A DNA stretch of 64,000 bases, from contig NZ_CP035103.1 in assembly GCF_006094695.1 (NCBI RefSeq), positions 3,348,001 to 3,412,000 of the forward strand, written 5' to 3'. The translations under genes were made by a program, and so were the position numbers. Below, one piece after another: positions 38,047 through 55,633 of this stretch (its first letter is position 1; the number at the start of each line of letters is the position of its first letter). The stretch is from Kocuria rosea (GTDB lineage: Bacteria > Actinomycetota > Actinomycetes > Actinomycetales > Micrococcaceae). The notes beneath the pieces are model-generated. The model was given only the letters and a program-made list of their open reading frames with translations, was not told the DNA's origin and did no database searches.

Positions 38047-39270
38047 TCAGTCGCGCAGCATCTCCCCCACCCGCCGGACCCCTTCGGTGATGTCCTCCGG
38101 CGAGGCCGCGGAGTAGGCGAGGCGCAGGCTCGTGGAGGCGCGCCCGTCCGCGTAGCAGGCGCCGCCGGGCACCAGCACCACGCCGTGCCCGATGGCCCGG
38201 CCCAGGAGGTCCCCGTGGTCGAGGGCCGGGTCCAGGTCCAGCCACGTGAAGAAGCCGCCGGCGGGACGCGTCCAGCGCACCCCCTCGGGCATGAACCGCT
38301 CGAGGGCGGTCATCATGGCGGCGCAGCGCGCGCGGTACAGGTCCACCGCCCGGTCCAGGGCGGGCCGCCAGTGCTCGCTGGCCACGTACTCGGCGGCGAG
38401 CTCCTGGCCGAGCACGGACGGGTGGATGGTCACGGCCTCGGCCGCGATCTGCAGCCGGGCCCGCACCGCCGGCGCCGCCGCGATCCAGCCGACCCGCAGC
38501 CCGGGCGAGAAGATCTTGGAGAAGCTGCCCAGATGGATCACGGTGCCCGGGTCCAGCGAGTACAGGGACGGGAGCCGGTGGGCGCGGTCGAAGCCGAGCA
38601 GCGCGTACGGGTCGTCCTCGAGGATGAGCACCCCGCGCTCGGCGCAGACCTCCACGAGCCGCCGGCGCCGCTCCTCGGTGAGGGTCACCCCGGTGGGGTT
38701 GTGGAAGTTCGGGATGGTGTAGACGAACTTCACGCTCCGGCCGGCGGCCCGCAGCCCGTCGATCCGCCCGGCGACCGCCTCGGGGTCCAGTCCGTCGTCG
38801 TCGACGTCCACGTGGGCGACCTCGACCTCGTAGCTGCCGAAGACGCCGAGGGCCCCCACGTAGGTGGGGCCCTCGGCCACGACCACGTCCCCCGGGTCGC
38901 AGAACAGCTTGGTCACGAGGTCGAGACCCGCCTGGGACCCGGCGGTGATCTGGATCGTGTCCGGCGTGGTCTCCGCGCCCTGCAGGCGCATGAGCTCCAC
39001 GACCAGCCCGGGCAGGCGCCCGATCCCGGCCCCGGAGCCGTACTGGAGCACCTCGGGGCCGCGCTCGGCGAGGATCCGCGCCGACATCGCGGCCACCACG
39101 TCGTGCGGGAGCACGCTCATGTCCGGGTTGCCGCCGGCCAGGGAGATGATCCCGGGGCGCATCGCGATCTCGAACACGGCCCGGACCGGGGAGGGGCGGA
39201 ACTCCTCGGAGCGGTGGGCGAACAGCGAGGTGTAGTCGGGCCGGGGGGTCACGGCCGCGCCCCCGGTCAC
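38047..39270 (-). CDS. PLP-dependent aminotransferase, class I/II; candidate arginine transaminase
   Basis: 407 residues from GTG 39270, which has GGAGG upstream and overlaps the ureohydrolase stop. Fold-type I aminotransferase without an HTH, of the 2-aminoadipate/LysN-like group: [24 protein letters not shown] and the PLP lysine in [15 protein letters not shown]. It converts an amino acid to a 2-oxo acid. Coupling to a ureohydrolase, and a ThDP decarboxylase-like enzyme nearby, make arginine to 2-ketoarginine (AruH-type step) the best guess. Substrate unproven. Confidence 0.82.
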
Positions 39271-40346
39271 CGGTCCTCCCCCGCCGGGCCCTGCACCGGG
39301 GCCTGCGCCGGGACGGCGTCCCCGTAGACGTGCCCGGCCAGCCCGTAGGCGGGTCCGCCCGGCGCCGCGCCGGGCCCCAGCGCGAGGAGGCTGATGAGCT
39401 CGTAGGCCACGTGGGCGGCCGCCACCCCGGTGATCTCGGCGTGGTCGTAGGCCGGGGCGACCTCGACGACGTCGCAGCCGACCACGTTCGTCCCGCGCAG
39501 CCCGCGCAGGATCTCGAGCACCTCCCGGCTGGTCATGCCACCGGCCTCGGGGGTCCCGGTGCCGGGGGCGTGGGCCGGGTCCAGCACGTCGATGTCCAGC
39601 GAGACGTAGAGCGGGCGGTCGCCGACGCGCTCGCGCAGGTGCGCGACGACGGCGTCCACCCCCAGCCGCATGACGTCGGCGGAGGAGACGATGCCGAAGC
39701 CGAAGCGGGCGTCGTCGTCGAGGTCCTCGGTGCCGTAGAGCGGCCCGCGGGTGCCGACGTGGCACACGGCGTCCGTGTCGAGCAGGCCCTCCTCGAACGC
39801 CCGGCGGAAGGGGGTGCCGTGGGTGTACTCGGCGCCGAAGTAGGTGTCCCAGGTGTCCAGGTGGGCGTCGAAGTGCAGCAGCGCGACCTCGCCGTGGCGC
39901 GCGTGGGCGGCGCGCAGCAGCGGCAGGGCGATGGTGTGGTCGCCGCCGATCGCCACGAGCCGGGTGTCCTCGCCCATGAGCTCCTTGGCCTGGGCCTCGA
40001 TGGAGGCGATCGCCTCGGGGATGTCGAAGGGGTTGGCCACGATGTCCCCGGCGTCGGCGACCTGCGCCCCGGCGAACGGCGAGACGTTCTGCGCGGGGTT
40101 GTAGGGGCGCAGCAGGCGCGAGGACTCCCGGACGTGGTTGGCCCCGAACCGGGCGCCGGGCCGGTAGGAGACGCCGGCGTCGAACGGCACGCCCACCACC
40201 GCGATGTCCGTGTGCTCGACCTCGTCCGTGCGCGGCAGGCGGGCGAACGTGCCCAGCCCCGCCCAGCGCGGGGTCAGTGCGGCGTTGACGGGTCCGACGA
40301 CGGGGGTGCCGTCCGGGGTGGTGCCGGTGATGCGCTCGGGGTTCAT
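39267..40346 (-). CDS. agmatinase/guanidinobutyrase-family ureohydrolase
   Basis: 359 residues from ATG 40346. The arginase-fold dimanganese ligands are all present: [14 protein letters not shown] and [19 protein letters not shown]. It releases urea from a guanidino compound. SpeB agmatinases and GbuA guanidinobutyrases are not separable by eye; the adjacent aminotransferase, aldehyde dehydrogenase and ThDP enzyme favour 4-guanidinobutyrate, giving GABA plus urea. The urease and urea transporter operons about 9-15 kb away would use the urea. Confidence 0.85.
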
Positions 40347-40428
40347 GGTGTGCGGTCCTCTCGGTGGATGCTGACGGGGGTGCTGACGGGGGTGCCGGCG
40401 GGGGCGGCGGACGGGCCGGGCGGGGGGC

Positions 40429-40995
40429 TCACGAGCCGAGGATCCACAGCAGCACGGCGTCCTCGGTGCCGGGGTTCTCCCAGGTGTGCGGTTCGGAGCC
40501 GGGGAAGGTGACGGTGTCCCCGGCCGCCAGGTCGAAGGTGCGGTCCGGGACGTGCAGCCGGAACCGGCCGCTGATCAGGTGCAGCACCTCGGTCTCGCAG
40601 TCCATGCTGTACATCGCGTCCTCGCCCCGGCCCCCGGCGGCCACGCGGGCCCGGATGACCTGGACCTGGCGCTGGGCCGACGGCGTGACGAGCTGCTCCT
40701 CGATGCCCTCGCCGCCGAGGTCGATGTGCGGGGCGTCCTCGAGCCGGACCAGCTCCACGTCGGCGGGCCCGGCGAAGAGCGCGCCCACGTCGATCCGCAG
40801 CACCTGGCACATCCGCACCAGGGAGTCCACGGGCGGGGAGGTGATGTCCCGCTCCACCCGGCTGACGAAGCCCTTGGTGAGGCCCGCGGCGGAGGCGAGC
40901 TGGTCGATGGTCATGTGGCTGCGCCGCCGGTGGTTGCGCAGCCGCGACCCCACGGCGGCGGTGTGCCCGGAGCTCTCGATGGGCAGTGCTTTCAC
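40429..40995 (-). CDS. XRE-cupin transcriptional regulator
   Basis: 188 residues from GTG 40995 with GGAGGAGG upstream. N-terminal HTH_3 ([36 protein letters not shown], about 15-55) and C-terminal cupin (about 110-188, [19 protein letters not shown]). This layout resembles PuuR and other polyamine/amino-acid catabolic regulators. It precedes the ureohydrolase on the same strand and faces the transporter operon, so it probably controls both directions. Confidence 0.85.
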
Positions 40996-41059
40996 GACGA
41001 CGACGCCTCCTCCCGGACGGTTTTACCCGCCCGTCACGACCCGGACCCGTTCCCAAAAC

Positions 41060-41094
41060 ATGATCTGCATCATACTATGTGGGACAACTTTTGT
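41060..41094. promoter_or_regulatory. divergent promoter region with two short dyads
   Basis: The AT-rich stretch between the regulator and transporter genes holds ATGAT-4-ATCAT (41060-41073) and ACAA-3-TTGT (41084-41094). They are candidate binding sites for the XRE-cupin protein. No -10/-35 pair can be assigned with confidence. Confidence 0.35.
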
Positions 41095-41174
41095 TTCTTG
41101 TAGAGCAACCCCGTTCCGGGGAGGCTCCCGATCGACCCCGTGGGCGCCCGCGCCCCGAGGAAGCAGCGACACCC

Positions 41175-42635
41175 ATGAACGTGCTGATCATCGTGCTGTA
41201 CCTGGTCGCCATGGTGGCGGTCGGGCTCTGGGCCAGCCGCCGGGCCCACGACGCCGAGGACTACCGGGTGGCCGGCCGCCGCCTGGGCCCCGGCTTCTAC
41301 ACCGGGACGATGGCCGCGGTGGTCCTCGGCGGCGCGTCCACCGTGGGCGGGGTGGGCCTCGGCTACACCTACGGCATCTCCGGGATGTGGCTGGTGGTGG
41401 CGATCGCCACCGGCCTGGCCGCGCTGAGCCTGTTCTTCGCCGGCCGCATCCAGTCCCTCAAGGTGTTCACCGTCTCCCAGATGCTGCAGCTGCGCTACGG
41501 CGAGCGCGGCGGGGCCAAGGCGTCCTCGTTCGTGATGCTGGCCTACACCGTGATGCTCTCGGTGACCTCCACCTCCGCGTACGCCGCGATCTTCTCGGTC
41601 CTCTTCCCGCTCGACCGGTCGTGGGCGATCCTGCTCGGCGGCGTGGTGGTCGTGGCGTACTCCGTGCTCGGCGGGATGTGGTCGATCACGCTCACCGACA
41701 TGATGCAGTTCGTGTTCATGACGGTCGGCATCTTCCTGGTCCTGCTGCCGTTCTCCCTCTCCGCGGCGGGCGGCTGGACCGGGCTCGAGGACCGGCTGGA
41801 CGCCACGTTCTTCACCTGGGACGGCATGGGCACGCAGGCGATCGTCACCCAGTTCGTGGTCTACGGCTTCGGCATGCTGATCGGCCAGGACATCTGGCAG
41901 CGCGTCTTCACCGCCCGCTCCCCGCAGGTCGCCCGCTGGGGCGGGCTCGCCTCCGCGGCCTACGTGGCGCTCTACGGCGTGGCCGGGGCCGTCATCGGGA
42001 TGACGTCCGCCGCCGTGGCCCCGGACCTCTCCTCCCCGGACGACGCGTTCGCCACGATGGCGCAGCAGTACGTCCCGGCCGGGCTCGGCGGGATCGTGCT
42101 CGCGGCCGGGGTCGCCGCCATGATGTCCACGGCCTCGGGCGCGCTCATCGCCGCGGCCACGGTGGCCCGCGTCGACGTCGTGCCGACCCTGAGGTCCCTG
42201 CTCACCCGGCACGCGGCCCCCGCCCCGGAGGGCACCGCCGAGGCGCTGCGCGGGGACCGGATCTACGTGCTCGTCTTCGGCGTGGTGATCACGGTGATCT
42301 CGATCTTCGTCTCGGACACCGTCACCGCCCTGACCATCGCCTACGACATCCTGGTGGGCGGCCTGCTCGTCGCCATCCTCGGCGGGCTCCTGTGGCGGCG
42401 CGGCACGAGCCTCGGCGCGGCCCTGTCCATGCTCGTCGGGTCCGTGGTGACCGTGGCGTCCATGGCGGTCTTCGGCGTGCTGGCCAACGCCCCCATCTAC
42501 CTGGGACTGGCGAGCTCCGCACTGGTCTACGTGGTGGTCTCACTGCTGTCCCGCCCCACGCACGCCGGGGTGCTGCGGCAGTGGAACGAGCGCCTCGCGG
42601 GCTCCGGCGCCGACCGCGCGGAGGCCCGCCCGTGA
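41175..42635 (+). CDS. sodium:solute symporter (SSS family)
   Basis: 486 residues from ATG 41175. About 13 membrane segments with the SSS pattern: MNVLIIVLYLVAMVAVGLWASRR, DAEDYRVAGRRLG, LGGASTVGGVGLGYTYG and GLGGIVLAAGVAAMMSTASGALIAAAT. It imports a solute with sodium. First gene of the plus-strand operon, opposite the ureohydrolase unit. An amino acid, polyamine or guanidino compound is a likely cargo. Confidence 0.85.
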   Translation: MNVLIIVLYLVAMVAVGLWASRRAHDAEDYRVAGRRLGPGFYTGTMAAVVLGGASTVGGVGLGYTYGISGMWLVVAIATGLAALSLFFAGRIQSLKVFTVSQMLQLRYGERGGAKASSFVMLAYTVMLSVTSTSAYAAIFSVLFPLDRSWAILLGGVVVVAYSVLGGMWSITLTDMMQFVFMTVGIFLVLLPFSLSAAGGWTGLEDRLDATFFTWDGMGTQAIVTQFVVYGFGMLIGQDIWQRVFTARSPQVARWGGLASAAYVALYGVAGAVIGMTSAAVAPDLSSPDDAFATMAQQYVPAGLGGIVLAAGVAAMMSTASGALIAAATVARVDVVPTLRSLLTRHAAPAPEGTAEALRGDRIYVLVFGVVITVISIFVSDTVTALTIAYDILVGGLLVAILGGLLWRRGTSLGAALSMLVGSVVTVASMAVFGVLANAPIYLGLASSALVYVVVSLLSRPTHAGVLRQWNERLAGSGADRAEARP

Positions 42636-44146
42636 GCGCCTGGTCCCGGCTCTCGGACCACCTGGACGAGAACTCCGAGGGCTACGGCCCGCTGCGCGGC
42701 ACGCTGGGCGCGGGCCGGATCGGGATGATCTGGCTCGCGGCGAACCTGGTGGTGACCACCCTGCTGACGGGGACGCTGTTCGTGCCCGGGGTGTCCTGGC
42801 CCACGGCTCTGGCCATGATCGTCCTGGGCACGCTGATCGGCGGGGCGGTGCTGGTGCTCGTGGGGAACATGGGCACCCGCACCGGTCTCGCCACCATGTC
42901 CCTGACCAAGGGCTCCTTCGGCCTGCGCGGGTCCTTCCTGCCGGTGGCCGCGAACGTGGTCATCCTCATGGGCTGGAGCTGGGTGCAGGCGATGCTCGCC
43001 GGCGTCACCGTGAACTTCCTCGTGGCGCAGGCGACCGGCTACTCGAACCCGGTGCTGTTCTCGGTGCTCTGCCAGGCGCTGGTCGTGGCGCTGGCCGTCC
43101 TCGGCCACGAGGGCATCGCCCGGGTGGAGCCGTGGCTGGCGGTGGTGATCCTGGGCATCATGGCCTGGGTGTTCACGGTGGCGTTCACGTCCTACCCCGT
43201 GGCCGACTTCGCCGCCCTGCCCGTGGACCCCGGGGCGGGCTGGTCCCCCATCGCGGTCCTCGACGTCGTCATCGCCACGGCCATCTCCTGGACCGTGCTC
43301 TCCGCGGAGTTCAACCGGCTCGCCCGCCGGCAGTCCGCGGGCATGATCGGCTCCGGCGCGGGGTACGTCCTGTCCACGGTCGCGGCCATGAGCCTCGGGG
43401 CCACCGCCGTCGCCTACGTGGTGCTCGACGGCGGGGAGGCGGTCGGGTTCGACCCGACGGTGCTCGTCGCCGCCTTCGGCGCGCCCCTGGCGGTGGTGGT
43501 CTTCCTGTCGGTGATGGCCACCAACACCATGGTCGTCTACGGCATGGTCTCCTCGGTGGTGAACCTGACACCCTCGCGGAGGCTGCGGTTCCTGCCCACG
43601 GCGCTCGTGCTGGGGGCAGTGTCGGTCCTCGGGTCCACCCGGCTGGGCCTGCTGGACCAGTTCACCGAGTTCCTGGTGCTGATCGGCTCGCTGTTCATCC
43701 CCGTCTTCGCGATCATGCTGGTGGACTACTACGTGGTCCAGCGCGGCGCCTACGCGGCGGACATCCTGCGCGGTCGCGGCGGCCGGTACTGGTACCGGGG
43801 CGGGGTCAACCCCGCCGCCGTGGCGGTGTGGGCCGTCGGCGCGGTCTGCTCGCTGGTGCTCACCTACGTGCTGCCGAGCCCCGTGGGCGCGACCATTCCC
43901 ACGTTCGTCCTCTCCGCGGCGCTCTACCTGCTCTGGGCCCTGGCGGCGAAGCGGATCGTGCCGGGCCGGCCGGTCCAGCGACACCTCGCCGAGGCGGGGA
44001 GGACCGGGACGGACGGGGCCGGGGCGCGGGACGGGGCCGCCGCGCCCGAGCGGACCGGCGGACCCTGCACGGTCGGCACTGTCGGCACTGTCGGCACTGT
44101 CGGCGCGGCCGGCAGGCCGGAGGAGGCCGCCGATGCGCCTCGTTGA
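42632..44146 (+). CDS. NCS1-family permease (purine/cytosine permease type)
   Basis: 504 residues; GTG overlaps the symporter stop. Twelve membrane segments of the nucleobase:cation symporter-1 fold: GWSWVQAMLAGVTVNF, ATAISWTVLSAEFNRLAR, LIGSLFIPVFAIMLVDYYVV. N-terminal SDHLDENSEGYGPLRG is typical of cytosine-permease relatives. The last 50 residues are a charged tail ending in a TVG repeat. A second, unrelated transporter directly coupled to the first suggests two forms of substrate or product exchange. Confidence 0.82.
   Translation: MSAWSRLSDHLDENSEGYGPLRGTLGAGRIGMIWLAANLVVTTLLTGTLFVPGVSWPTALAMIVLGTLIGGAVLVLVGNMGTRTGLATMSLTKGSFGLRGSFLPVAANVVILMGWSWVQAMLAGVTVNFLVAQATGYSNPVLFSVLCQALVVALAVLGHEGIARVEPWLAVVILGIMAWVFTVAFTSYPVADFAALPVDPGAGWSPIAVLDVVIATAISWTVLSAEFNRLARRQSAGMIGSGAGYVLSTVAAMSLGATAVAYVVLDGGEAVGFDPTVLVAAFGAPLAVVVFLSVMATNTMVVYGMVSSVVNLTPSRRLRFLPTALVLGAVSVLGSTRLGLLDQFTEFLVLIGSLFIPVFAIMLVDYYVVQRGAYAADILRGRGGRYWYRGGVNPAAVAVWAVGAVCSLVLTYVLPSPVGATIPTFVLSAALYLLWALAAKRIVPGRPVQRHLAEAGRTGTDGAGARDGAAAPERTGGPCTVGTVGTVGTVGAAGRPEEAADAPR
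44072..44107 (+). repeat. 9-base tandem repeat in permease tail
   Basis: GTCGGCACT is repeated three times from 44072, followed by partial copies, coding for TVGTVGTVG in the cytoplasmic tail of the permease. It lies just before the overlap with the cyclase gene. Copy number could vary without a frameshift because the unit is 9 bases. Confidence 0.8.
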
Positions 44147-44789
44147 CCTGAGCCACCCCGTGGAGGCCGGCATGCAGGTCTTCCCGGGGGACCCGGCCGT
44201 GGACTCCCGGCTCGCGGCGTCCGTCCCGCGGGACGGCTTCCAGGTGGCCGAGCTGCACCTGGGCACGCACAGCGGCACGCACGTGGACGCCCCGCTGCAC
44301 ACCGTGGACGGCGGCTCGCCCGTGGACGAGCTCGACCTCGCCCGCCTGGTGGGACCGGCGCGCATCGTGCACGTGCCGGAGCTCCGGGAGCACGAGGTGA
44401 TCCGCTGGGCGCACGTCCGCGCACAGCTGGAGGACGTGCGGGCCGGCACGATCGTGCTGTTCCGCACCGACTGGTCCCGGCACTTCGGCACCCCGCGCTA
44501 CCTGGCGCACCCGGTGCTGGACGTGGAGATCGCCGAGCGCCTGCTGGCCGCGGGCGTGCACGTGCTCGGCACGGACACCCTCAACCCGGACCGCACCCCG
44601 GACGCCGGCGCGTCCGGCCCGCCCGAGCTGCCGGTGCACGCGGCGGTCCTCGGGGCGGGCGGGGCGATCGTCGAGAACCTGACGAACCTGCACGCCGTCG
44701 ACTGGCGGGACCCGCTGGTGAGCGTACTGCCGCTGCGGCTGCGCGGACTGGACGGCTCCCCGGTGCGGGCGGTGGCGATGCAGCCGTGA
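44133..44789 (+). CDS. cyclase-family metal hydrolase (kynurenine formamidase-like)
   Basis: 218 residues; ATG overlaps the permease end by 14 bases. The family signature [11 protein letters not shown] (HxGTHxDxPxH, zinc ligands) is intact, preceded by [16 protein letters not shown]. KynB-type enzymes hydrolyse N-formyl amides; the wider family includes isatin hydrolases. In this operon it may open a cyclised or acylated pathway intermediate, for example a ring formed by 2-ketoarginine or guanidinobutyraldehyde. That role is speculative. Confidence 0.8.
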
Positions 44790-44881
44790 GCCCCGCGCCG
44801 CCGCTGCCCGGTCCCCGCCCCGGGACCACGACGCCGCCGACGCCGACGCCGACATCCGATCACTCCCGAGGAGACCCCGCC

Positions 44882-46303
44882 ATGACCGCCGACGCCCGAT
44901 CCACCGCCCCGTCCGCCTACCGGTCCGTCAACCCGGCGACCGGCCGGGTCCTGGCCGAGCACCCGACCGCCACCGATGCCCAGGTGCAGGAGGCCCTGGC
45001 CGGCGCCGACGCCGCGTTCCGCGCCTGGCGGACCCTGCCGATCGAGGAGCGGGCGGCCGTCGCCGCCCGCGTCGGGACGCTGTTCGCCGAACGGGTCGAG
45101 GAGCTGGCCGCCGTCATCACCGAGGAGATGGGCAAGCCGCTCGCCGAGGCCCGGGACGAGGTCGCGTTCTGCGCCGAGATCTTCGGCTACTTCGCCGAGC
45201 AGGGCCCGGCCCTGGCCGCGGACCAGCCCATCACGGCCTCCGGCGGCGGCCGGGCGGTGGTCCAGAAGCGGCCCGTGGGGGTGCTGCTGGGGATCATGCC
45301 GTGGAACTACCCCTACTACCAGGTGGCCCGCTTCGCGGCCCCCAACCTGGTGCTGGGCAACACGATCCTGCTCAAGCACGCCGAGTCCTGCCCACGGGCG
45401 GCCCTGGCCCTCCAGCAGCTCATGGACGACGCCGGGGTGCCGGCCGGCGCCTACGCCAACGTCTTCGCGAGCCACGACCAGGTCGCGGACATCATCGCCG
45501 ACCCGCGGGTCCAGGGGGTGTCCCTGACCGGGTCCGAGCGGGCCGGGGCGAAGGTCGCCGAGATCGCCGGGCGGAACCTGAAGAAGGTCGTCCTCGAGCT
45601 CGGCGGCTCCGACCCCTACGTGGTGCTGGACACCGACGACGTGCGCGAGTCCGCCCGCGCGGCCTTCGCCACCCGCATGGGCAACACGGGCCAGGCGTGC
45701 AACTCCAACAAGCGGATGATCGTCATGGCGGACCTCTACGACGAGTTCGTGGCCGAGCTGACCCGCCAGGCCGAGGCGCTGACCCCGGGCGACCCGGCCG
45801 AGGCCGCCCCCGGGACCTTCGCCCCCCTGTCCTCCCGGGCCGCGGCCGAGGGACTGGCCCGCCAGATCCGGGCCGCCGTGGACGCCGGCGCCACCCTGAA
45901 CGCCGGCGGGCGGCTGCTCGAGGGCCCGGGCGCGTACCTGGAGCCCACCGTGCTCACCGGGATCACCCCGGACATGGCCGCCCACCACGAGGAGCTCTTC
46001 GGCCCCGTGGCCGTGGTCTACCGGGTGGCCGACGACGCGGAGGCGCTCGCCCTGGCCAACGACACCCCCTACGGGCTCGGCGGGGCGGTCTTCAGCACGG
46101 ACCCCGAGCGGGCGCGCCGGCTCGCCGAGGGCCTGGACGCGGGCATGGCCGCCGTCAACGCCGCCGAGGCCGAGGGCGCCGAGATGCCCTTCGGCGGGGT
46201 CAAGCGCTCCGGCTACGGCCGGGAGCTGGGCCCGCTGGGCATGGACGAGTTCGTCAACAAGCGCCTGCTCTACGTCAAGGACCGGCCCGCCGGGGAGGGC
46301 TGA
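44882..46303 (+). CDS. NAD(P)-dependent aldehyde dehydrogenase (semialdehyde type)
   Basis: 473 residues from ATG 44882. ALDH core: [22 protein letters not shown], catalytic Glu in [10 protein letters not shown] and catalytic Cys in [13 protein letters not shown]. The sequence is closest in feel to Sad/GabD succinate-semialdehyde dehydrogenases. In the proposed pathway it could oxidise 4-guanidinobutyraldehyde to 4-guanidinobutyrate, or succinate semialdehyde formed from GABA. Both are compatible with its neighbours. Confidence 0.87.
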
Positions 46304-46388
46304 CCGCCGGCGTCCGCCGCACGTCCCGCCCTGCTCCGCCCGCTCCACCCGCCCCGCACCACCCGCCCCACCCTTTGGAGGACCGCTC

Positions 46389-47972
46389 ATGACCGCCCGC
46401 AGGACCACCGCCCGTGCCGTGCTGGAGACGCTCCGGGGCTACGGCGTCGACACCGTCTTCGGCATCCCCGGGACCCACTCGCTCGAGTTCTACCGCCCGC
46501 TGCGCGAGCTGGGCATCCGGGCGGTCACCACCCGCCACGAGCAGGGCGCCGCGTACGGCGCCGACGGGTGGAGCCAGGTCTCCGGGCTGCCGGGCGTCGT
46601 CATCACCACGTCCGGGCCGGGCCTGCTCAACTCGCTGTCCGGGGCGGCCACGGCCTACGCCGAGTCCCGCCCGATGATCATCCTGTCCCCCGGCCGTCCG
46701 GTGGGCCACGACTTCCGGGACATCGGCTCGCTGCACGAGACGAAGAACCCGTCCGCGGCCGTGGACGCGATCGTCGGCCGCAGCCGCCGGGTCACCAGCG
46801 GGGCCGAGGCCGTGACCATGGTCCACGACGCCTTCCGGGACTTCGCCCACTCCCGCCCCCGGCCGGTGCACATCGAGATCCCGCTGGACGTCCTGGAGGC
46901 GGAGCTCGACTACACCGACCGGCAGGTGGCCCCGCGCCGGCTCGGCGCCCCGCAGCCGGCGCCGGTCGACGACGTGCGCCGCGCCGCCGAGGTGCTGCGG
47001 GACGCCGAGCACCCTGTCATCCTCGCCGGCGGCGGCTCGCTGGCCGCCGGCGCGCGGCTGCTCGAGCTCGCCGAGCTGCTCGAGGCGCCGGTCATCACCA
47101 CGACCAACGGAAAGGGCGCGATCCCCGAGCGGCACCGCCTCTCGCTGGGCGCCGACCTGCGCCTGTCCACCGCGCACGAGTTCCTGCGCTCCGCCGACGC
47201 CCTGCTGGTGATCGGCTCGAAGGTGGGCGAGGCCGAGCTGTGGGGCGGGGACATCACGCCGCGGGGCCCGGTCGTGCGCGTGGACATCATGCGGGACCAG
47301 ATGCTGTGCAACCTGGACCCGGACATCGAGCTGCCCGGCCACTCCGCGGCCGTGGTCCCGCAGCTCCTCGAGGCGATCGGCCCGCTCGCCCCGCGCCCCC
47401 CGCGCGACCTCACCGAGGTCTTCGCCCGGCTCGACGACGAGGGCCGCCGCACCGCGCCCGAGCTCGCGGCGCTCAACGAGACGATCATGGCGGTGGTGCC
47501 CGAGGACACGATCATCGGCGGCGACTCCTCCCAGGTCACCTACCTGGGCTCCACCACGTTCTTCCGCGCCCAGCTCCCGCACTCCCTGCTCTACATGGGG
47601 ACCTACGCGACCCTGGGCTACGGCCTGCCCGCCTCGATCGGGGCGAAGCTCGCCGCCCCGCACCGGCCCGTGCTGTGCCTCGTGGGCGACGGCGCCCTGA
47701 TGTTCTCGATCCAGGAGCTGATGACCGCCGTGGAGCTCGGCGTGGACCTGCCGATCGTGTGCGTGGACAACGGCGGCTACGGCGAGATCCGGCAGAACAT
47801 GACCGACCGGGACATCGACCCGCTCGCCGTGGACCTGCGGCAGCCGGACTGGCCCGCGCTCGCGGAGGCCTTCGGCGCGGTCGGGTTCGAGGCCACCCCG
47901 GAGAACCTGGCCGATAAGGTCGTCGAGGCGCTCGCGGTCGAGGGGCCGAGCCTGGTGCACCTGAAGATCTGA
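46389..47972 (+). CDS. ThDP-dependent acetolactate-synthase-like enzyme, candidate 2-ketoarginine decarboxylase
   Basis: 527 residues; ATG with TTGGAGGA upstream. Three-domain POX/AHAS fold: catalytic Glu in [13 protein letters not shown] (about residue 50), and ThDP-Mg site [23 protein letters not shown]...NNGG-type closing as [10 protein letters not shown] lone large subunit, with no IlvN and no branched-chain neighbours, argues against acetolactate synthesis. AruI, the 2-ketoarginine decarboxylase of Pseudomonas, is of this family. Aminotransferase, ALDH and ureohydrolase around it fit that role. Inference. Confidence 0.83.
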
Positions 47973-48084: not shown

Positions 48085-49068
48085 TCAGCGCGGGACCTGG
48101 TCCTCCGGCAGCTCCGTCACGGGGGCGAGCACCACGTCCTCGATCTTCCAGTCCAGGTCCGCGCAGCGCTTCCGGGCGGCCGCGAGCTGCTCGAGCGTCG
48201 GGACGACCCCTTCGGCCGGGACCACGAAGGCCTCCACGTGGAAGACGTGGCCCTCGTCGCGGACCCGGACGCCCACGTCCTGCACCCAGGGCTGCTGGCG
48301 CAGCACGGTCTCCATCTCCTGGAGGAGAGGGTGCGGCGCGGCGTCGTCGTAGGTGGTCGGGCGGGAGTCCACGAGGTCGGCGACGGCCCCCTTGAGGTTC
48401 GTGGCCCCGTCCTTGAGGATCGACGTGGAGACCACGAGCGCCGCGACCGCGTCCGCCCACCACAGGCCCATCCCGATGCCCAGCACACCGACCGAGGTGG
48501 CCAGGCCGGTCATCCAGTCCGCCTTGTTCATGTCGGCGTCGGCGTAGAGCACCTTGTCGTGGAGCTCCTCCGCGAGCTTCATCTTCATCCGGCCCAGGAT
48601 CACGGGCGGGATGCTGGTGAGCGTCATCGCCGCCACCATCAGCCACCCGGACCACACCGGCGTGCCGAACAGGTTCGTGACCCCGATCGGGGGCCGCTCG
48701 CCCCGCAGGAGCCCGGAGCCGGAGTCGACCACGAGGAACGCGCCCATCGCCAGGAGCGCGACCGCCGCCACGAGGTGGCCCACGCCCACGGAGCGGTGGT
48801 AGCCGTAGGGGTGGCGGGGCGTAGGGCGCCGGCCGGCGACGCGGACCGCCACGAGGAAGGCGAGGGGCGGCAGGAACGAGAGCGAGTCCTCGATCCAGGC
48901 GACCTTCATGGCCTGGGACTGCCCGGCCACGAGCGCCACGACGGCCACGGTCACGGCGAGCACCCCGAGGGTGATCTTCTCCAGGCGCACCGCACGCGCC
49001 AGGGTGCGCGCCTGGGCGCCGGTGAGCTCGGTGGACCCGAACCGGGCCTTCGCCCCGGACTGCGACAT
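48085..49068 (-). CDS. cation diffusion facilitator family transporter
   Basis: 327 residues from ATG 49068, overlapping the upstream lipoprotein stop (TGATG); GTG 49071 is an alternative. Six membrane segments, with the CDF-type YGYHRSVGVGHL pattern and ADADMNKADWMTGLATSVGVLGIGMG carrying the metal-site Asp residues, then a cytoplasmic domain of about 90 residues. It would export a divalent metal such as Zn, Fe, Co or Mn. First-site residues are unusual (EDSLSFLPP), so metal preference is uncertain. Confidence 0.78.
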   Translation of the reverse strand: MSQSGAKARFGSTELTGAQARTLARAVRLEKITLGVLAVTVAVVALVAGQSQAMKVAWIEDSLSFLPPLAFLVAVRVAGRRPTPRHPYGYHRSVGVGHLVAAVALLAMGAFLVVDSGSGLLRGERPPIGVTNLFGTPVWSGWLMVAAMTLTSIPPVILGRMKMKLAEELHDKVLYADADMNKADWMTGLATSVGVLGIGMGLWWADAVAALVVSTSILKDGATNLKGAVADLVDSRPTTYDDAAPHPLLQEMETVLRQQPWVQDVGVRVRDEGHVFHVEAFVVPAEGVVPTLEQLAAARKRCADLDWKIEDVVLAPVTELPEDQVPR

Positions 49069-49547
49069 CACCCCTCCTCCCGTTCCACCAGGAACGTCTC
49101 GAGCTCGGTGAGGAAGCCGTTCTCCCCCAGCCGGGTGGCCAGCACGATCTTCTCGGTGCGGCCGTCTCCCGTCTCGATCTCCGTGTGCGGGCGGGTCAGC
49201 GCGGCGTGCTTCTCCCAGGGGGACGTCTCGGTGAGGCCTGCGACGACGACGTCGAGGTCGCCGCCCTCGAGCGAGCGGATCAGGTGGCTCTCGGCGCCGG
49301 AGGTCCAGACGACCTCGGCGTCGATCCGCTCGGCGAACTCCTCGACCAGCTCGACCTCCACCCCCGAGGGACGGCCGCTGTCGGCGACCTCCGTCCAGGG
49401 CGGGCTCTCCGAGACCCCGGCCCGCAGTTCACCGCCTCGCACCCGGTCGAGGGTGCCCTCGGGGTCCTTCGGGAACCCGGAGCCGCACCCCGTGACCAGG
49501 GCCGCGGTCAGCACCGCCACCGCGAGCGGGCGCACCGAGGGGGACAT
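49068..49547 (-). CDS. short solute-binding-domain lipoprotein
   Basis: 159 residues from ATG 49547. Lipoprotein signal with lipobox LVTGC (Cys21). The body ([17 protein letters not shown]...[15 protein letters not shown]...[23 protein letters not shown]) is domain 1 of a type II periplasmic amino-acid-binding protein, but only about half of the normal 220-250 residues is present. It ends right at the CDF gene with a TGATG overlap, so the short form looks intended rather than broken. It may be a sensor or helper of the CDF pump; unknown. Confidence 0.65.
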
Positions 49548-49819: not shown

Positions 49820-51076
49820 ATGACGGTCCCCGCACGGCGCGCTCTGATCCCGGCCCTCGTGGCCGCCACGCTCCTCACGGGGTGCGGCGCGAAGTACGAC
49901 CCGCGGCCGAGCGCAGAGGCGGCCCAGGCGCCCTCGAGCTCGTGCGTGGACACCTCCGGGAACAGCGTGAAGGTGGGGCTGCTCAACTCCCTCTCGGGCA
50001 CGATGGCCGTGAGCGAGACGACCGTCAACCGTTCCCTGAACCTGGCGATCGAGGAGATCAACGCCGACGGCGGGGTGCTCGGCAAGGAGCTCGACCCCGT
50101 CACCGAGGACGGCGCGAGCGAGCCGACGGTGTTCGCGGAGAAGGCCGCCAAGCTGATCCGGCAGGACTGCGTGGCCGCGGTGTTCGGCGGCTGGACCTCC
50201 GCGAGCCGCAAGGCCATGCTCCCGGTCTTCGAGGCCCAGGACTCGCTGCTGTTCTACCCGGTGCAGTACGAGGGGCTCGAGGCCTCCCCCAATATCTTCT
50301 ACACCGGGGCCACCACCAACCAGCAGATCGTCCCGGCCCTCGACCACCTGCGGGAGCAGGGGCACCGGCGGATCTTCCTGGTGGGCAGCGACTACGTCTT
50401 CCCCCGCACGGCGAACCGGATCATCAACGCCTACGCCGCGGCCCACGGCATGGAGGTGGTGGGCGAGGAGTACGTGCCGATGGGCTCGACCGAGTTCTCG
50501 ACCATCGTCAACAAGCTCCTGGCCTCGGACGCCGACGCGGTGTTCAACACCCTCAACGGCGACTCCAACGTGGCGTTCTTCCGCCAGTACACCTCCGTGG
50601 GCCTCGAGGCCGGCGAGATGCCCGTGGTGTCCGTGTCGGTCGCGGAGGAGGAGGTCCCCGGGATCGGCGTGGAGAACGTCGCCGGTCAGCTGACCTCCTG
50701 GAACTACTACCAGACCGTCGACACCCCCGAGAACGAGCGGTTCGTGCGGGCGTTCCAGGACCGGTACGGCGCCGGGCGGGTCACGAGCGACCCCATGGAG
50801 GCCGCCTACACGTCCGTGCACCTGTGGCGGGCGATGGTCGAGAAGGCCGGGTCCTTCGACGTCGACGCCGTGCGCGAGGCCGCCGACGGGACCGTGGTCG
50901 AGGCCCCCGAGGGCACCGTCGAGGTGGACGGGGAGACCCAGCACGTCACCAAGACCCCGCGCATCGGCCGGATCCGCGAGGACGGGCTGATCGAGACGGT
51001 CGAGGAGGCCGCCGAGCCCGTGGTCCCCGACCCGTTCCTGACCGGCTACGACTGGGCCGACGGCGTCTCCGGCTGA
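49820..51076 (+). CDS. urtA: urea ABC transporter, substrate-binding lipoprotein
   Basis: 418 residues from ATG 49820. Lipobox LLTGC with Cys22; then a periplasmic-binding type I fold of the UrtA/AmiC group: [55 protein letters not shown] and [12 protein letters not shown], features conserved in urea-binding proteins. It captures urea outside the membrane for UrtBC. First gene of a tight urtABCDE operon. Confidence 0.93.
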
Positions 51077-51137
51077 GCCGCCCCGCCGCCGCCGGCACCG
51101 CCCCCCGACGCCCCGCAGACCGAGAGAAGAGCCGTCC

Positions 51138-52022
51138 ATGGAAGTCATCGTCAGCCAGTTGTCCGCCGGGCTCAGCCTCGGCTCCATCCTCCTCCTCGCG
51201 GCCGTGGGGCTGTCCCTGACCTTCGGGCAGATGGGCGTCATCAACATGGCCCACGGCGAGTTCATCATGGCCGGCGCGTACACCGCGTTCACGGTCCAGC
51301 AGGTGCTCGGCCACGCCGGGGTCTCCCTGCTGCTGTCGATCCCGATCGCGTTCCTCGTGGGCGGGGCCCTCGGCCTGCTGGTCGAGGGGCTGCTGCTGCG
51401 GCGCATGTACCACCGGCCGCTGGACACGCTGCTCGTCACCTTCGGGGTGTCCCTGGTCCTCCAGCAGGTGGCCCGGGACGTCTTCGGCGCCCCCAGCGTG
51501 GACGTGCGGCTGCCCGAGCTGCTGCAGGGCCCCGTGGAGGTCCTGGGCGTCCCGGTCCCGGCGTCCCGCGTGTTCCTGCTGGCCCTGGCCGTCATTGTGG
51601 TCGCAGCCCTCGCGCTCGTGCTCCACCGCACCTCCCTGGGCCGCCGGGTCCGCGCCGTGGTGCTCAGCCGCGACCTCGCCGAGGTCAGCGGGATCTCCTC
51701 CCGGCGCACCGACCAGCTGACGTTCTTCATCGGCTCCGGGCTCGCCGGCGTGGCCGGGGTGGCGCTGACCCTCGTGGGCTCCACCAGCCCCACCCTCGGC
51801 ACCACCTACATCGTGGACGCCTTCCTCGTGGTCGTCGCCGGCGGCATCGGCCAGATCCGCGGGGCGGTGCTCGCCGCGGCGGGCCTGGGCGTGCTCCAGG
51901 CCTTCGTCGAGTACTCCACGACCGCCTCGATCGCCAAGGTCCTGGTGCTGGTCGCCGTGGTCGCCTTCCTGCAGCTGCGCCCCCAGGGGATCTTCAGCGT
52001 CCGAACGAGAGGTCTGGCATGA
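51138..52022 (+). CDS. urtB: urea ABC transporter permease UrtB
   Basis: 294 residues; LivH-type permease with eight hydrophobic segments: SLGSILLLAAVGLSLTFGQMGVINMAHGEF is diagnostic of branched-chain/urea permeases. QQVARDVFGAPSVDV is the UrtB-like region. The end overlaps urtC by 4 bases. It forms the membrane channel with UrtC. Confidence 0.92.
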   Translation: MEVIVSQLSAGLSLGSILLLAAVGLSLTFGQMGVINMAHGEFIMAGAYTAFTVQQVLGHAGVSLLLSIPIAFLVGGALGLLVEGLLLRRMYHRPLDTLLVTFGVSLVLQQVARDVFGAPSVDVRLPELLQGPVEVLGVPVPASRVFLLALAVIVVAALALVLHRTSLGRRVRAVVLSRDLAEVSGISSRRTDQLTFFIGSGLAGVAGVALTLVGSTSPTLGTTYIVDAFLVVVAGGIGQIRGAVLAAAGLGVLQAFVEYSTTASIAKVLVLVAVVAFLQLRPQGIFSVRTRGLA

Positions 52023-53212
52023 GCACCACCAGCGCACCCCGTCCCGCCGCCGCGTGGCGCGACCGGCTCACCGGGCCCCGGGGAGCCGCCGCCGGGCTGG
52101 CCCTCGGCGCGCTCCTGCTGCTCGTCCTGGCCCCCCTGACCCTCGGCGGGTTCGGCCTGGGCCTGCTCGGCAAGTACCTGTGCATCGCCATGGTGGCCGT
52201 GGGCATCGGCCTGGCCTGGGGTCGCGGCGGGATGCTCACCATGGGCCAGGGCCTGTTCTTCGGCCTCGGCGCCTACATCATGGCCATGCACCTGCAGCTC
52301 GCGGACACCCGGCTGCTGGGCGAGCAGGTCCCCGAGTTCATGCGGCAGAACGGCGTCACCGAGCTGCCCGCCGTGTGGGCCGTGTTCGCCCACCCGGTGG
52401 CCGCCGTGCTCGGCGTGGTCCTGGTGCCGGCAGCGGTGGCCGCGGCCCTGGGCCTGGCGATCTTCACCCGGCGGGTCAAGGGCGCCTACTTCGCGATCCT
52501 GTCCCAGGCCCTCGCCGCGGCCTTCGCGGTCTGGCTGATCGGGCAGCCCGTCCTCACCAACGGCTCCAACGGGCTGAGCAGCTTCCGCTCCCTGTTCGGC
52601 TACGACCTCGCCGACCCGCGCAACCAGCTGCTCCTCTACCTCGTCACCGCGGCGCTGCTCCTGGCCATGGTGGCCCTCACCTGGCAGCTCCACCGCAGCC
52701 GGTGGGGCGAGCTGCTCGTGGCGGTGCGGGACCAGGAGGAGCGCGTGCGCTTCCTCGGCCGGGACCCTGCCCTCGTGAAGACCGCCGCCTACGTCCTGGC
52801 CGCGGTGATGGCCGGGATCGGCGGGGCGCTGTTCGTCCCGGTGGTGGGGATCGTCTCCCCCGCCGACGTCGGGGTGATCCCGTCCATCGCGTTCCTCATC
52901 GGCGTGGCCGTCGGCGGCCGCGCGACCCTGCTCGGGCCCGTGCTCGGCTCGATCGCCGTGTCCTTCGCCGAGACGTCCCTGGCCTCCGCGTTCCCGTCCT
53001 TCTGGGTGTACCTCCAGGGCCTGCTCTTCGTGCTGGTGGTCGGGTTCCTGCCCGGCGGCATCGCCTCGCTGCCCGGTGTGCTCCGGCGTCGTCGCCGCAC
53101 CCCCGCGACCGCCCCCGGCGACGGCGACGGCCACGGCCCCGGAGGGGCCACCACCCCCGACGACCCCGTCCCCACCCCGGCAGCGGCCCTGGCCGCGGAG
53201 GAGGCCCGATGA
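52019..53212 (+). CDS. urtC: urea ABC transporter permease UrtC
   Basis: 397 residues; ATG overlaps the urtB stop. LivM-type permease with about ten membrane segments: LAWGRGGMLTMGQGLFFGLGAYIMAMHL and VAVGGRATLLGPVLGSIAVSFAETSL. A Pro/Ala-rich tail of about 40 residues follows the last segment. It overlaps urtD by 4 bases. Confidence 0.92.
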   Translation: MSTTSAPRPAAAWRDRLTGPRGAAAGLALGALLLLVLAPLTLGGFGLGLLGKYLCIAMVAVGIGLAWGRGGMLTMGQGLFFGLGAYIMAMHLQLADTRLLGEQVPEFMRQNGVTELPAVWAVFAHPVAAVLGVVLVPAAVAAALGLAIFTRRVKGAYFAILSQALAAAFAVWLIGQPVLTNGSNGLSSFRSLFGYDLADPRNQLLLYLVTAALLLAMVALTWQLHRSRWGELLVAVRDQEERVRFLGRDPALVKTAAYVLAAVMAGIGGALFVPVVGIVSPADVGVIPSIAFLIGVAVGGRATLLGPVLGSIAVSFAETSLASAFPSFWVYLQGLLFVLVVGFLPGGIASLPGVLRRRRRTPATAPGDGDGHGPGGATTPDDPVPTPAAALAAEEAR

Positions 53213-54087
53213 ACGCCGCCGCACGCCCCGAGATGCTGTCCGCGCGCCGCCCCGAGTGGAGGAGCTCCCTGCTGGGCCGCACCCCGCCGCAGCCCGGCGG
53301 GCTGCGCACGGGCCGCCCCTCCTACCTCGAGATCACGGACCTCACCGTGTCCTTCGGGAGCTTCACGGCCGTGGACGGCGTGGACCTCGTGGTCAACCAG
53401 GGCGACCTGCGCTTCCTCATCGGCCCCAACGGCGCCGGGAAGACCACCCTCATCGACGCCGTGACCGGGCTCGTCCCGGCGCGCGGGTCGATCGACCACG
53501 ACGGCCACCAGCTGGTGGGCCGCAGGACGCACCGGATCACCCGGCTGGGCGTGGGCCGCACCTTCCAGACCGCGAGCGTCTTCGAGCAGCTCACGGTCCT
53601 CCAGAACCTCGACATCGCCGCGGAGGCCGGCCGCCCGCCCCTGTCCCTGCTCGCCGCCCGGCGGTCCGTGTCCCGGGAGGTGGAGGAGGCCCTCGAGATC
53701 ATCAACCTCTCCGCCCTGCGGGACGTCCCGGCCGGGGTGCTGGCCCACGGGCAGAAGCAGTGGCTCGAGATCGGGATGCTGCTCGTGCAGAAGGCGCAGG
53801 TTCTGCTGCTCGACGAGCCCGTGGCCGGGATGAGCCACGAAGAACGGGAGCAGACCGGTGAGCTGCTGCGCCGGATCGGCGGCGACCGGATCACGATCGT
53901 GGTGGAGCACGACATGGAGTTCCTGCGCCGCTACGCCACCTCCGTCACCGTGATGGCCGACGGCCGGGTGATCAGCGAGGGCTCCGTGGCCCACGTGCAG
54001 GCCGACCCGCGGGTCCAGGAGATCTACCTGGGCACCGCGGCCACCGCCGCCGCCACCGCAGCCGACTCCCGGGAAGGGGACTCCTGA
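53209..54087 (+). CDS. urtD: urea ABC transporter ATPase UrtD
   Basis: 292 residues from ATG 53209. Walker A GPNGAGKTT, Q-loop region GVGRTFQTASVFEQLTVLQNL, a degenerate signature LAHGQKQWLEI and Walker B VLLLDEPVAGMS, as in LivG/UrtD proteins. The first 40 residues extend beyond the core, as is common for UrtD. It powers transport with UrtE. Confidence 0.93.
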   Translation: MNAAARPEMLSARRPEWRSSLLGRTPPQPGGLRTGRPSYLEITDLTVSFGSFTAVDGVDLVVNQGDLRFLIGPNGAGKTTLIDAVTGLVPARGSIDHDGHQLVGRRTHRITRLGVGRTFQTASVFEQLTVLQNLDIAAEAGRPPLSLLAARRSVSREVEEALEIINLSALRDVPAGVLAHGQKQWLEIGMLLVQKAQVLLLDEPVAGMSHEEREQTGELLRRIGGDRITIVVEHDMEFLRRYATSVTVMADGRVISEGSVAHVQADPRVQEIYLGTAATAAATAADSREGDS

Positions 54088-54779
54088 TGCTCGAGCTCCA
54101 GGACGTGCACACCGGCTACGGCCGCACCGAGGTGGTCCACGGCGTGGACCTCACCGTCGGTGGGGACGCCGTGGTCGCCCTCCTCGGCCACAACGGGGCG
54201 GGCAAGACCACGCTGCTGCGGGCGGTCGTGGGCCTCAACAGGGTGACCTCCGGCCGGATCCTGCTCGACGGCGAGGACATCACCGGGCTCAGCGGGCACG
54301 CCCGGGTCCGCCGCGGCATGGCCTACGTCCCGCAGGGCCAGCGCTCCTTCGGCGGGCTCAGCGTCCGGGAGAACCTCCAGGTGGTGGCCGACGGCCGGCG
54401 GAACGGGCGGGCCGCCGTCGACCGGTCCCTGGCGATGTTCCCGGCCCTCGAGGGGCTGCTCGAGCGCCGGGCCGGGCTGCTCTCGGGCGGGCAGCGCCAG
54501 CAGCTGGCGATCGCCCGCGCCCTGATCACCGAGCCGTCCCTGCTGATCCTCGACGAGCCCACCGAGGGCATCCAGCCGTCCGTGGTCCAGGAGATCGAGC
54601 AGAAGATCCTGCAGCTGGCCGCCGGCACCGGGATCCGGGTGCTGCTGGTGGAGCAGCGGATCGGCTTCGCCCTGGGCTCGGCCACGGACTGGTACGTCCT
54701 GGACTCCGGGCGGGTCAGCGCCTCCGGCCGCGCCGGGGAGCGGGCCGAGGAGCACGCCCGGGCGGCGCTCGCCCTGTGA
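54087..54779 (+). CDS. urtE: urea ABC transporter ATPase UrtE
   Basis: 230 residues; ATG overlaps the urtD stop (TGATG). Walker A GHNGAGKTT, signature LSGGQRQQLAIARAL and Walker B LLILDEPTEGIQPS; the EGIQPSVVQEIE segment is characteristic of UrtE. It completes the transporter just before the urease genes. Confidence 0.93.
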   Translation: MLELQDVHTGYGRTEVVHGVDLTVGGDAVVALLGHNGAGKTTLLRAVVGLNRVTSGRILLDGEDITGLSGHARVRRGMAYVPQGQRSFGGLSVRENLQVVADGRRNGRAAVDRSLAMFPALEGLLERRAGLLSGGQRQQLAIARALITEPSLLILDEPTEGIQPSVVQEIEQKILQLAAGTGIRVLLVEQRIGFALGSATDWYVLDSGRVSASGRAGERAEEHARAALAL

Positions 54780-54839
54780 GCCGGCGCGGGCGCACGCGCC
54801 GGGGCGCCTGCCCGGGCGCCCGCGCCCCGGCACGTGCCG

Positions 54840-54866
54840 GAAACACCCGGTGAACCTCGCCGAAAC
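54840..54866 (+). promoter_or_regulatory. GlnR-like direct repeat before ureA
   Basis: GAAAC-6-TGAAC-6-GAAAC gives three half sites at exact 11-base spacing, about 55-80 bases before the ureA start. This matches the spacing of actinobacterial GlnR boxes, which control nitrogen genes including urease. Binding is not proven. Confidence 0.5.
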
Positions 54867-54921
54867 ACGGAGCCCCTACGGTGACGACTGTCCCTGAGCA
54901 CCCGCCGTCCCGAGGAGAGCC

Positions 54922-55224
54922 GTGCACCTGACACCCCGTGAGCAGGAGAAGCTGCTGGTCGTCGTGGCCGGCGACCTCGCCCGGCGGCGCCGGGACCGGG
55001 GGCTGCGGCTCAACCACCCGGAGGCGGTCGCCCTGATCACCGCCGAGCTGCTGGAGGGCGCCCGGGACGGCCGGACCGTGGCCGAGCTCATGTCCTGGGG
55101 CTCCACGATCCTGGCCCGGGCGGACGTCATGGAGGGCGTGCCGGAGATGGTCCACTCCGTCCAGGTCGAGGCGACCTTCCCGGACGGCACCAAGCTCGTC
55201 ACCGTCCACGACCCCATCCGCTGA
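54922..55224 (+). CDS. ureA: urease gamma subunit
   Basis: 100 residues from GTG 54922, with GAGGAGAG upstream. The UreA sequence [22 protein letters not shown]...[21 protein letters not shown] is complete and of the normal length. Part of the nickel urease trimer that splits urea to ammonia and CO2. It starts the ureABCEFGD operon, 142 bases after urtE. Confidence 0.96.
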
Positions 55225-55255
55225 CCCGCCCGCCCCCGGCACCGAAGGAGCGCCC

Positions 55256-55633
55256 GTGATCCCCGGAGAGTACGTCCTGCGGCCCGAGCCCGTCGTGATC
55301 AACGCCGGCCGGCCCACCATGGAGCTGGACGTGGTCAACCGCGGCGACCGCCCCGTGCAGGTGGGCTCGCACTTCCACTTCGCCGAGGCCAACCCCGGCC
55401 TCGAGTTCGACCGGACGGCGGCCCGCGGCTTCCGCCTGGACGTCCCCGCCGGCACCGCGGTGCGCTTCGAGCCCGGCGACCGCAAGCGCGTCCGGCTCGT
55501 CGCCCTGGCGGGGCGCCGCGAGGTCCACGGCCTCGCGAACCGGGTGAACGGGCCCCTCGACGCCCCCGGCACGGACGCCCCCGGCACCGACGGCGGCCCC
55601 CGCCCCGACGCTTCCGGGAAGGAGCAGGCATGA
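55256..55633 (+). CDS. ureB: urease beta subunit
   Basis: 125 residues from GTG 55256. Core [19 protein letters not shown]...[18 protein letters not shown] is the UreB signature. The C-terminal 22 residues ([12 protein letters not shown]...) are an unconserved extension with a small APGTD duplication. The end overlaps ureC by 4 bases. Confidence 0.95.

Follow-up and report, generated by a model that had tools for sequence, protein, structure and literature searches.

A putative guanidino-acid catabolic island of rosea-group Kocuria and its relation to the Pseudomonas gbuA locus

Related Systems and Organization of the Island

The arginine transaminase pathway, reportedly described by Yang and Lu in 2007, uses AruH, AruI, KauB, and GbuA to transaminate, decarboxylate, oxidize, and finally hydrolyze its substrate to γ-aminobutyrate (GABA) and urea. 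In Pseudomonas aeruginosa, gbuA heads a cluster that we take to be gbuA-PA1420-PA1419-PA1418-PA1417-PA1416 (the region compared here, L082, lies on a plasmid record). In the available portion of PMC12607905, gbuA and PA1416 to PA1420 all stand in one MexT regulon table, consistent with one unit, and the accessible text of PMC11633122 reports that no substrate could be assigned to PA1419. A third system, AspC-IlvB1 of S. meliloti, comprises an aminotransferase and a thiamine diphosphate (ThDP)-dependent decarboxylase for arginine-derived oxoacids, as far as the available part of PMC7268258 goes. The present analysis concerns eight adjoining genes on the chromosome of the soil bacterium Kocuria rosea, a member of the rosea group, within a window of 64,000 nucleotides (NZ_CP035103.1, positions 3,348,001–3,412,000). 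The initial annotation had read this island as a complete arginine transaminase route beside urease.

All eight genes that it named or implied are present as open frames with family matches. Three lie on the minus strand from 40995 down to 38047 and encode an aminotransferase, a ureohydrolase, and an XRE-cupin regulator. Five lie on the plus strand (41175–47972) and encode an SSF symporter, an NCS1 permease, a cyclase, an aldehyde dehydrogenase (ALDH), and a ThDP enzyme. Genes overlap through GTGA at 42632–42635, at 44786–44789 if the ALDH starts there, and at 39267–39270 if the aminotransferase uses its GTG start at 39270, as expected of operons.

AruH and AruI had been taken as the model, but the closest island found is the P. 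aeruginosa gbuA locus, which likewise holds in one cluster a GbuA-type ureohydrolase (43% identity), an SSF symporter (47%), a ThDP enzyme of the same clade (37%), and an NCS1 gene. That locus includes LysR, FAD oxidase, and MBL protein genes, whereas the Kocuria island has the XRE-cupin, aminotransferase, and ALDH genes and is arranged as two divergent operons. With the AruH-AruI-KauB-GbuA pathway it shares the predicted chemistry alone; its aminotransferase comes from another group and all steps lie in one island, a comparison made without the AruI and AruH sequences themselves. The S. meliloti system, represented by the Rhizobium proxy L088, differs in having a ThDP enzyme of NF006122 and an aminotransferase of NF006719. 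An Arthrobacter cluster of ABC, 2-hydroxyacid dehydrogenase, amidohydrolase, and ThDP genes (L085, L011, L013) shares the ThDP clade (58–63%) and, in some members, an ALDH (up to 70%), but has amidohydrolases, in the examined stretch, where the island has its ureohydrolase. These comparisons favor describing the island as a version of the Pseudomonas gbuA locus that uses a KAT-II-like aminotransferase.

We lean slightly toward the view that the island would serve the catabolism of arginine or a closely related compound, passing through an oxoacid, an aldehyde, and a guanidino acid to an amino acid and urea. The reasons are that the ureohydrolase is nearest to GbuA and keeps its Arg72, that the ThDP enzyme belongs to the clade of the gbuA locus, which also has SSF and NCS1 genes, and that neither arginine deiminase, AstA, nor a convincing arginine decarboxylase was found in the genome.

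The Ureohydrolase

The ureohydrolase (39267–40346, minus strand; Arginase family PF00491, 314 bits) is the only Arginase-family gene in the 3.95-Mb, single-contig genome. A phmmer comparison with solved structures placed it closest to GbuA (3nio, 282 bits), GpuA (262), and proclavaminate amidinohydrolase (243), ahead of agmatinases, which reached at most 213 bits (three at 210–213, others at 115–154), and of arginases, with at most 104. On its nearest solved relatives, it belongs to the GbuA/GpuA type rather than to the agmatinases or arginases. It scored above the cut-offs of both NCBIfam agmatinase models, but the name is weakly informative because the P. aeruginosa GbuA of L082 also passes one of them, TIGR01230.

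Two residues bear on the substrate. GbuA Arg72 caps the (neighboring) active site at the substrate carboxylate, according to the part of PMC9772407 available to us. The window enzyme has Arg80 at this position, as do all 51 ureohydrolases compared (the window protein, those of 49 of the 51 loci with a ureohydrolase match, and one from Shinella), whereas two aligned agmatinases lack it. GbuA Met161, which Lee et al. reportedly placed in the specificity loop in 2011 with a role there, corresponds to Tyr169 in the window enzyme. Tyr is also aligned there in GpuA (3nip) and in 50 of the 51 ureohydrolases, the Shinella protein alone having Met. Since Arg72 is kept and the loop is like that of guanidinopropionase, the protein is likely a guanidino-acid hydrolase, its sequence being compatible with more than one substrate chain length, and 3-guanidinopropionate may be among its substrates. 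An agmatinase reading is disfavored by the nearest relatives, by the conserved Arg, and by the lack of a convincing arginine decarboxylase in the genome, although the agmatinase models pass. A preference for agmatine, which the initial annotation had named as grounds for abandoning its pathway, is unlikely by the same Arg and decarboxylase evidence.

The ThDP Enzyme

The candidate 2-oxoacid decarboxylase (46389–47972, plus strand; PF02775/02776/00205) is one of nine places in the genome matching the ThDP C-terminal domain. At the protein level, it shares 98% identity with a sequence named K. nitroreducens, 96% with K. polaris, and 92% with that of a K. rosea strain. Its best NCBIfam model is NF005712 (“5-guanidino-2-oxopentanoate decarboxylase”) with 429 bits, where the curated cut-off is 500. 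Nine relatives scored between 448 and 884, four of them above 500, including the P. aeruginosa gbuA-locus protein (884) and those of Caballeronia (877) and a Shinella (728). The AruI identity first assigned to this enzyme is too strong, given this score and its grouping with the gbuA-locus protein in a comparison without AruI.

In a tree of 67 rows, the window enzyme falls inside a 42-row clade (support 100/99) together with the gbuA-locus protein and others above the NF005712 cut-off. The phylogenetic check proposed in the initial annotation was run here without AruI; it places outside this clade the genome’s own acetohydroxyacid synthase (AHAS, i.e., acetolactate synthase), confirmed by a scan in which it passes PRK07789 and TIGR00118, along with the Rhizobium IlvB1-like protein and a group designated C1. 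In reading this tree, the placement of one own paralogue (L097, a 212-aa piece) with C1 is not trusted, and several other own paralogues are long-branched. Five residues, Glu33, Glu117, Asp379, Tyr385, and Glu466, are conserved at 85% or more within the actinobacterial as well as the proteobacterial group and are absent from the genome’s own AHAS. Glu51, at the position of the activating Glu of ThDP enzymes, is present. The AHAS stretch GMVRQWQ reads GEIRQNM, so that its Trp, which we take to be a functional residue of AHAS, is replaced by Asn. AHAS I is among the best solved matches, but an acetolactate synthase reading is disfavored by this substitution and by the position outside the part of the tree with the own AHAS, in agreement with the initial annotation, which had set this enzyme apart from acetolactate synthases.

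In two Kocuria genomes, only residues 4–330 of the ThDP enzyme are matched (85–86%; G103 C7:44391–45371 and G196 C33:19562–20542), perhaps because the gene is truncated or because of the assembly.

The Aminotransferase and the Remaining Genes of the Island

The pyridoxal phosphate-dependent aminotransferase (38047–39270 or 38047–39252, minus strand, from a GTG start at 39270 or 39252; Pfam Aminotran_1_2, 7e-38) has 1x0m/3aov (291 bits), 2egy (248), and the MppQ structure 8tn2 (139) as its best solved relatives, and by sequence it is assigned to the KAT-II/LysN group. An AruH identity is not supported: NF006719, the AspC-type family of the neighbor of the IlvB1-like gene in Rhizobium L088 and used as a proxy for AruH/AspC, does not appear within the top 25 of the 66 models listed for the window protein.

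The SSF sodium:solute symporter (41175–42635, plus strand; PF00474, 107 bits) is 47% identical over 463 aa to that of the P. aeruginosa gbuA locus. It is followed on the same strand by the CytX-like NCS1 permease (42632–44146; PF02133, Transp_cyt_pur, 118 bits; TIGR02358, 170 bits against a cut-off of 310, which is not reached) and the cyclase, a hydrolase of the KynB/isatin hydrolase type (44133–44789; PF04199, 112 bits). The nearest solved relative of the cyclase is KynB (4cz1, 65 bits), and an 11-residue stretch in it is presumably the metal motif. The ALDH runs from a GTG at 44786 or an ATG at 44882 to 46303 (plus strand; PF00171, Aldedh, 445 bits) and shares 70% identity with its counterpart in L085, an Arthrobacter plasmid cluster that has a ThDP enzyme of the 42-row clade type.

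Gene Neighborhoods in Other Genomes

Neighborhoods were compared at 80 named loci, the best 80 among the matches listed for the ThDP alignment, with flanks of up to 10 kb, some cut by contig ends, and neighbors called by tblastn with the window proteins (E 1e-8). A ureohydrolase lies within the flank in 51 of the 80, which indicates a grouping beyond chance, and in 38 it is the co-oriented immediate neighbor of the ThDP gene. Other genes are less frequent: SSF in 22, aminotransferase in 14, ALDH and XRE-cupin in 12 each, cyclase in 4, and NCS1 in 3. The arrangement is ureohydrolase-ThDP-SSF in Brevibacterium, Mycobacterium, and Pseudonocardia; Microbacterium has an MFS transporter, an amidohydrolase, the ThDP enzyme, and the ureohydrolase, and Kribbella and Phycicoccus have XRE-cupin, amino-acid ABC, ureohydrolase, ThDP, and ALDH genes. 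The Arthrobacter-type clusters (L011, L013–L016, L018, L085) combine amino-acid ABC genes, a 2-hydroxyacid dehydrogenase, and amidohydrolases with a ThDP enzyme of the same clade, an ALDH being present in L011 and L085; they perhaps represent another way of removing the guanidino group.

The comparison also took in nine annotated regions, on plasmids or megaplasmids, that carry a gene named after NF005712. The P. aeruginosa region has ureohydrolase, NCS1, SSF, ThDP, and FAD oxidase genes, and one Shinella region has speB-ThDP-ALDH with a D-amino-acid dehydrogenase and a racemase nearby. Phaeobacter shows aminotransferase-ThDP-DDAH-like, and Pararhizobium a DDAH-family gene and an amidohydrolase. 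Two Caballeronia regions carry ALDH and transporter genes, the second Shinella region a hydantoinase/carbamoylase-family amidase, and Streptomyces acyl-CoA-type genes; the R. jaguaris region holds nothing telling. Collectively, enzymes that might produce an oxoacid or cleave a guanidino group recur beside this ThDP clade but are not constant.

Two Leucobacter loci show that NCS1 and cyclase genes recur beside this ureohydrolase: L048 (12546–17747) has a ureohydrolase-NCS1-PLP decarboxylase run with a divergent XRE-cupin gene, and L039 (3253–5552) has XRE-cupin, ureohydrolase, and cyclase genes.

A Second ThDP Lineage in the Same Slot

Among 197 Micrococcaceae genomes, a window-like ureohydrolase was found in 178 (E 1e-80) and a Kocuria-type ThDP enzyme in 39 (E 1e-150). 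Twenty ureohydrolase loci were chosen by hand among the listed places, with one for each genus label, in genomes without a Kocuria-type ThDP match at the latter threshold. In 18 of these (L101–L106, L108–L119), a C1 ThDP enzyme, 30–35% identical to that of the window, lies directly downstream of the ureohydrolase; an XRE-cupin gene is present in the stretch in 16 and an SSF gene in 14. By similarity to the window proteins, the aminotransferase, ALDH, NCS1, and cyclase were found in none of the 20. Three C1 proteins scanned scored about equally with NF006122 and NF005712, below both cut-offs. Where window-type enzymes have Glu117 and Glu466, the C1 group has Gln and Ile, so C1 enzymes may act on something else. 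Kocuria and Rothia have a different ThDP lineage at the corresponding place, and the aminotransferase accompanies that lineage, flanking it in 14 of the 80 loci with this ThDP type (7 Kocuria/Rothia and 7 other) and in 0 of the 20 ureohydrolase loci without it. The difference may reflect replacement, or loss and regain.

The breadth of the ureohydrolase in the family and the C1 lineage beside it are new here, as is the operator described below. They point to a widespread guanidino-acid unit, present in 178 of 197 family genomes, whose ureohydrolase the models call agmatinase; no characterization for Kocuria or Arthrobacter was found in the literature searched. That literature, with most subscription papers outside reach, contained no report joining guanidinobutyrate with Kocuria, nor guanidinobutyrate with Arthrobacter and a transporter. 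For these genes, the designations agmatinase and acetolactate synthase are probably incorrect. That two distinct ThDP lineages occupy one slot next to the same ureohydrolase amounts to a natural experiment, which bears on whether the substrate of the unit has been constant or has changed.

Proposed Pathway and Alternative Explanations

The pathway proposed in the initial annotation is the leading explanation of the gene content, protein families, residues, synteny, and other arginine routes not found, from which all substrates and the order of steps are inferred. The aminotransferase would convert arginine to 5-guanidino-2-oxopentanoate (2-ketoarginine), the ThDP enzyme would decarboxylate this to 4-guanidinobutanal, the ALDH would oxidize the aldehyde to 4-guanidinobutyrate, and the ureohydrolase would release GABA and urea. 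GabT, encoded elsewhere, would take on the GABA, and urease would use the urea. The SSF symporter would bring in a substrate such as a guanidino acid or an oxoacid, whereas the NCS1 permease and cyclase, as an addition of the rosea group, may take up a cyclic precursor and open its ring. A guanidino-acid route with urea as its end product is supported, but the word “complete” was too strong, as the ALDH, NCS1, and cyclase genes lie inside the island only in L002 and L003 (rosea group) of the Kocuria loci L002–L007.

Several observations weigh against this pathway. The islands of L004–L006 are without these three genes, and L007 has just an ALDH about 9 kb away. The ureohydrolase lacks the Met161 of a guanidinobutyrase proper, and its specificity loop is guanidinopropionase-like and unlike that of GbuA. 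The ThDP enzyme does not reach the cut-off of NF005712, and only one of six actinobacterial relatives (448–534) does so. A name of this type is no proof of activity, because IlvB1, the S. meliloti homologue of AruI, works sevenfold better with 5-amino-2-oxopentanoate (PMC7268258, available part). Nothing in the analyses run connected the SSF symporter with arginine, and the NCS1 permease is only 25% identical to that of the gbuA locus. Finally, a ureohydrolase was not found in the examined stretch of the Arthrobacter-type clusters listed above, and among the nine NF005712 regions two have a ureohydrolase, two a DDAH-family gene, and five neither.

These points leave room for other explanations. 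It is possible, though rather unlikely, that the island scavenges external compounds, the SSF symporter importing 4-guanidinobutyrate, 3-guanidinopropionate, or a relative from which the ureohydrolase frees urea, and the ThDP enzyme and aminotransferase handling the carbon skeleton or a different substrate. The GpuA-like loop, the likeness of the symporter to that of the gbuA locus, and the 20 picked loci, with their XRE-cupin and SSF genes and no similar aminotransferase or ALDH, would fit such a role; a hydrolysis-only route would have no need of a ThDP enzyme, yet one adjoins the ureohydrolase in 18 of the 20 picked loci and in 38 of the other 80. It is more doubtful that urea is removed first, with the ureohydrolase acting on 2-ketoarginine, the ThDP enzyme converting 5-amino-2-oxopentanoate to 4-aminobutanal, and the ALDH yielding GABA. 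The preference of IlvB1 just described favors this order, as does the acceptance of 5-guanidino-2-oxopentanoate by S. meliloti SpeB2 (same part of PMC7268258), but the IlvB1-like protein beside the aminotransferase in Rhizobium L088, the proxy for the S. meliloti protein, is of another subfamily (NF006122), and either cation would be compatible with the acidic Glu117 and Glu466. An incidental grouping, with the ThDP enzyme functioning as a common acetolactate synthase or another carboligase, is very improbable: the enzyme shares the superfamily, and AHAS I is among its best solved matches, but its place in the tree, the Trp-to-Asn change, and its recurrent adjacency to the ureohydrolase all speak otherwise.

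The history of the pathway from arginine is more speculative, and the following scenario is considered unlikely as a whole. An old Micrococcaceae operon of XRE-cupin, guanidino-acid hydrolase, ThDP, and divergent SSF genes with an AACN4GTT operator would have been rebuilt in Kocuria and Rothia, where the ThDP gene was swapped in place for a gbuA-locus-type decarboxylase arriving with the aminotransferase, giving the full arginine pathway. The rosea group would then have gained the NCS1 permease and a lactam-opening cyclase for a cyclic guanidine, e.g., a guanidino-acid lactam.

Regulation

The XRE-cupin gene (40429–40995, minus strand; HTH_31/HTH_3 and Cupin_2), earlier proposed as the regulator, is well placed in that role by its domains and by an AACN4GTT palindrome that tracks it. 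In the divergent promoter region, the predicted operator reads ACAAC-TTTT-GTTTC (41084–41097, no strand). The palindrome occurs upstream of SSF in 15 of 23 Micrococcaceae loci, against a mean of 0.99 of 23 and a maximum of 5 in 2000 first-order Markov shuffles, the palindrome having been discovered and counted on the same sequences. It is present in 14 of 15 loci with the XRE-cupin gene versus 1 of 8 without, and in 0 of 14 Brevibacterium/Mycobacterium/Pseudonocardia-type loci and 0 of 1 Pseudomonas locus. Within the window alone, CAACNNNNGTTK is no rarer than chance (1 match in 64 kb, 0.57 expected, 28 of 100 shuffles with one). XRE-cupin proteins in Pseudomonas repress neighboring metabolic genes, as stated in the available part of PMC7901475, and the XRE-cupin protein probably represses the island.

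Urease and Other Arginine Routes

The island is followed by a cation efflux family gene (48085–49071, minus strand), the urea ABC transporter genes urtA-C (49820–53212, plus strand; TIGR03407/03409/03408 over cut-offs), and ureC (55630–57342, plus strand; TIGR01792 over cut-off), 49820–57342 being a possible sink for urea. The adjacency to urease noted earlier is real in that urease lies downstream, but the urea transporter intervenes and the linkage is recurrent rather than constant. Among 27 Kocuria genomes, with ureC in 25 and the ThDP gene in 23 (E 1e-100), the two are within about 14 kb in 10, about 30–40 kb apart in 3, and 0.9 Mb apart in 1; in the remainder they lie on different contigs or one is absent. 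Within flanks of up to 10 kb, ureC was seen in L003 only and urtA in none of the loci.

A genome search gave no match for arcA, an OKR-type or pyruvoyl arginine decarboxylase, or AstA, the arginine oxidase and monooxygenase routes lying outside this search, and only a 46.7-bit partial match for speA. A gabT gene over its cut-off lies elsewhere in the genome.

Two RNA family matches were also recorded in the window. A 5_ureB_sRNA match in Rfam (85.9 bits, 55785–56074, minus strand) lies opposite ureC and may merely reflect the conserved urease coding sequence. A SAM-IV riboswitch match above the gathering score is located at 9006–9127 on the minus strand.

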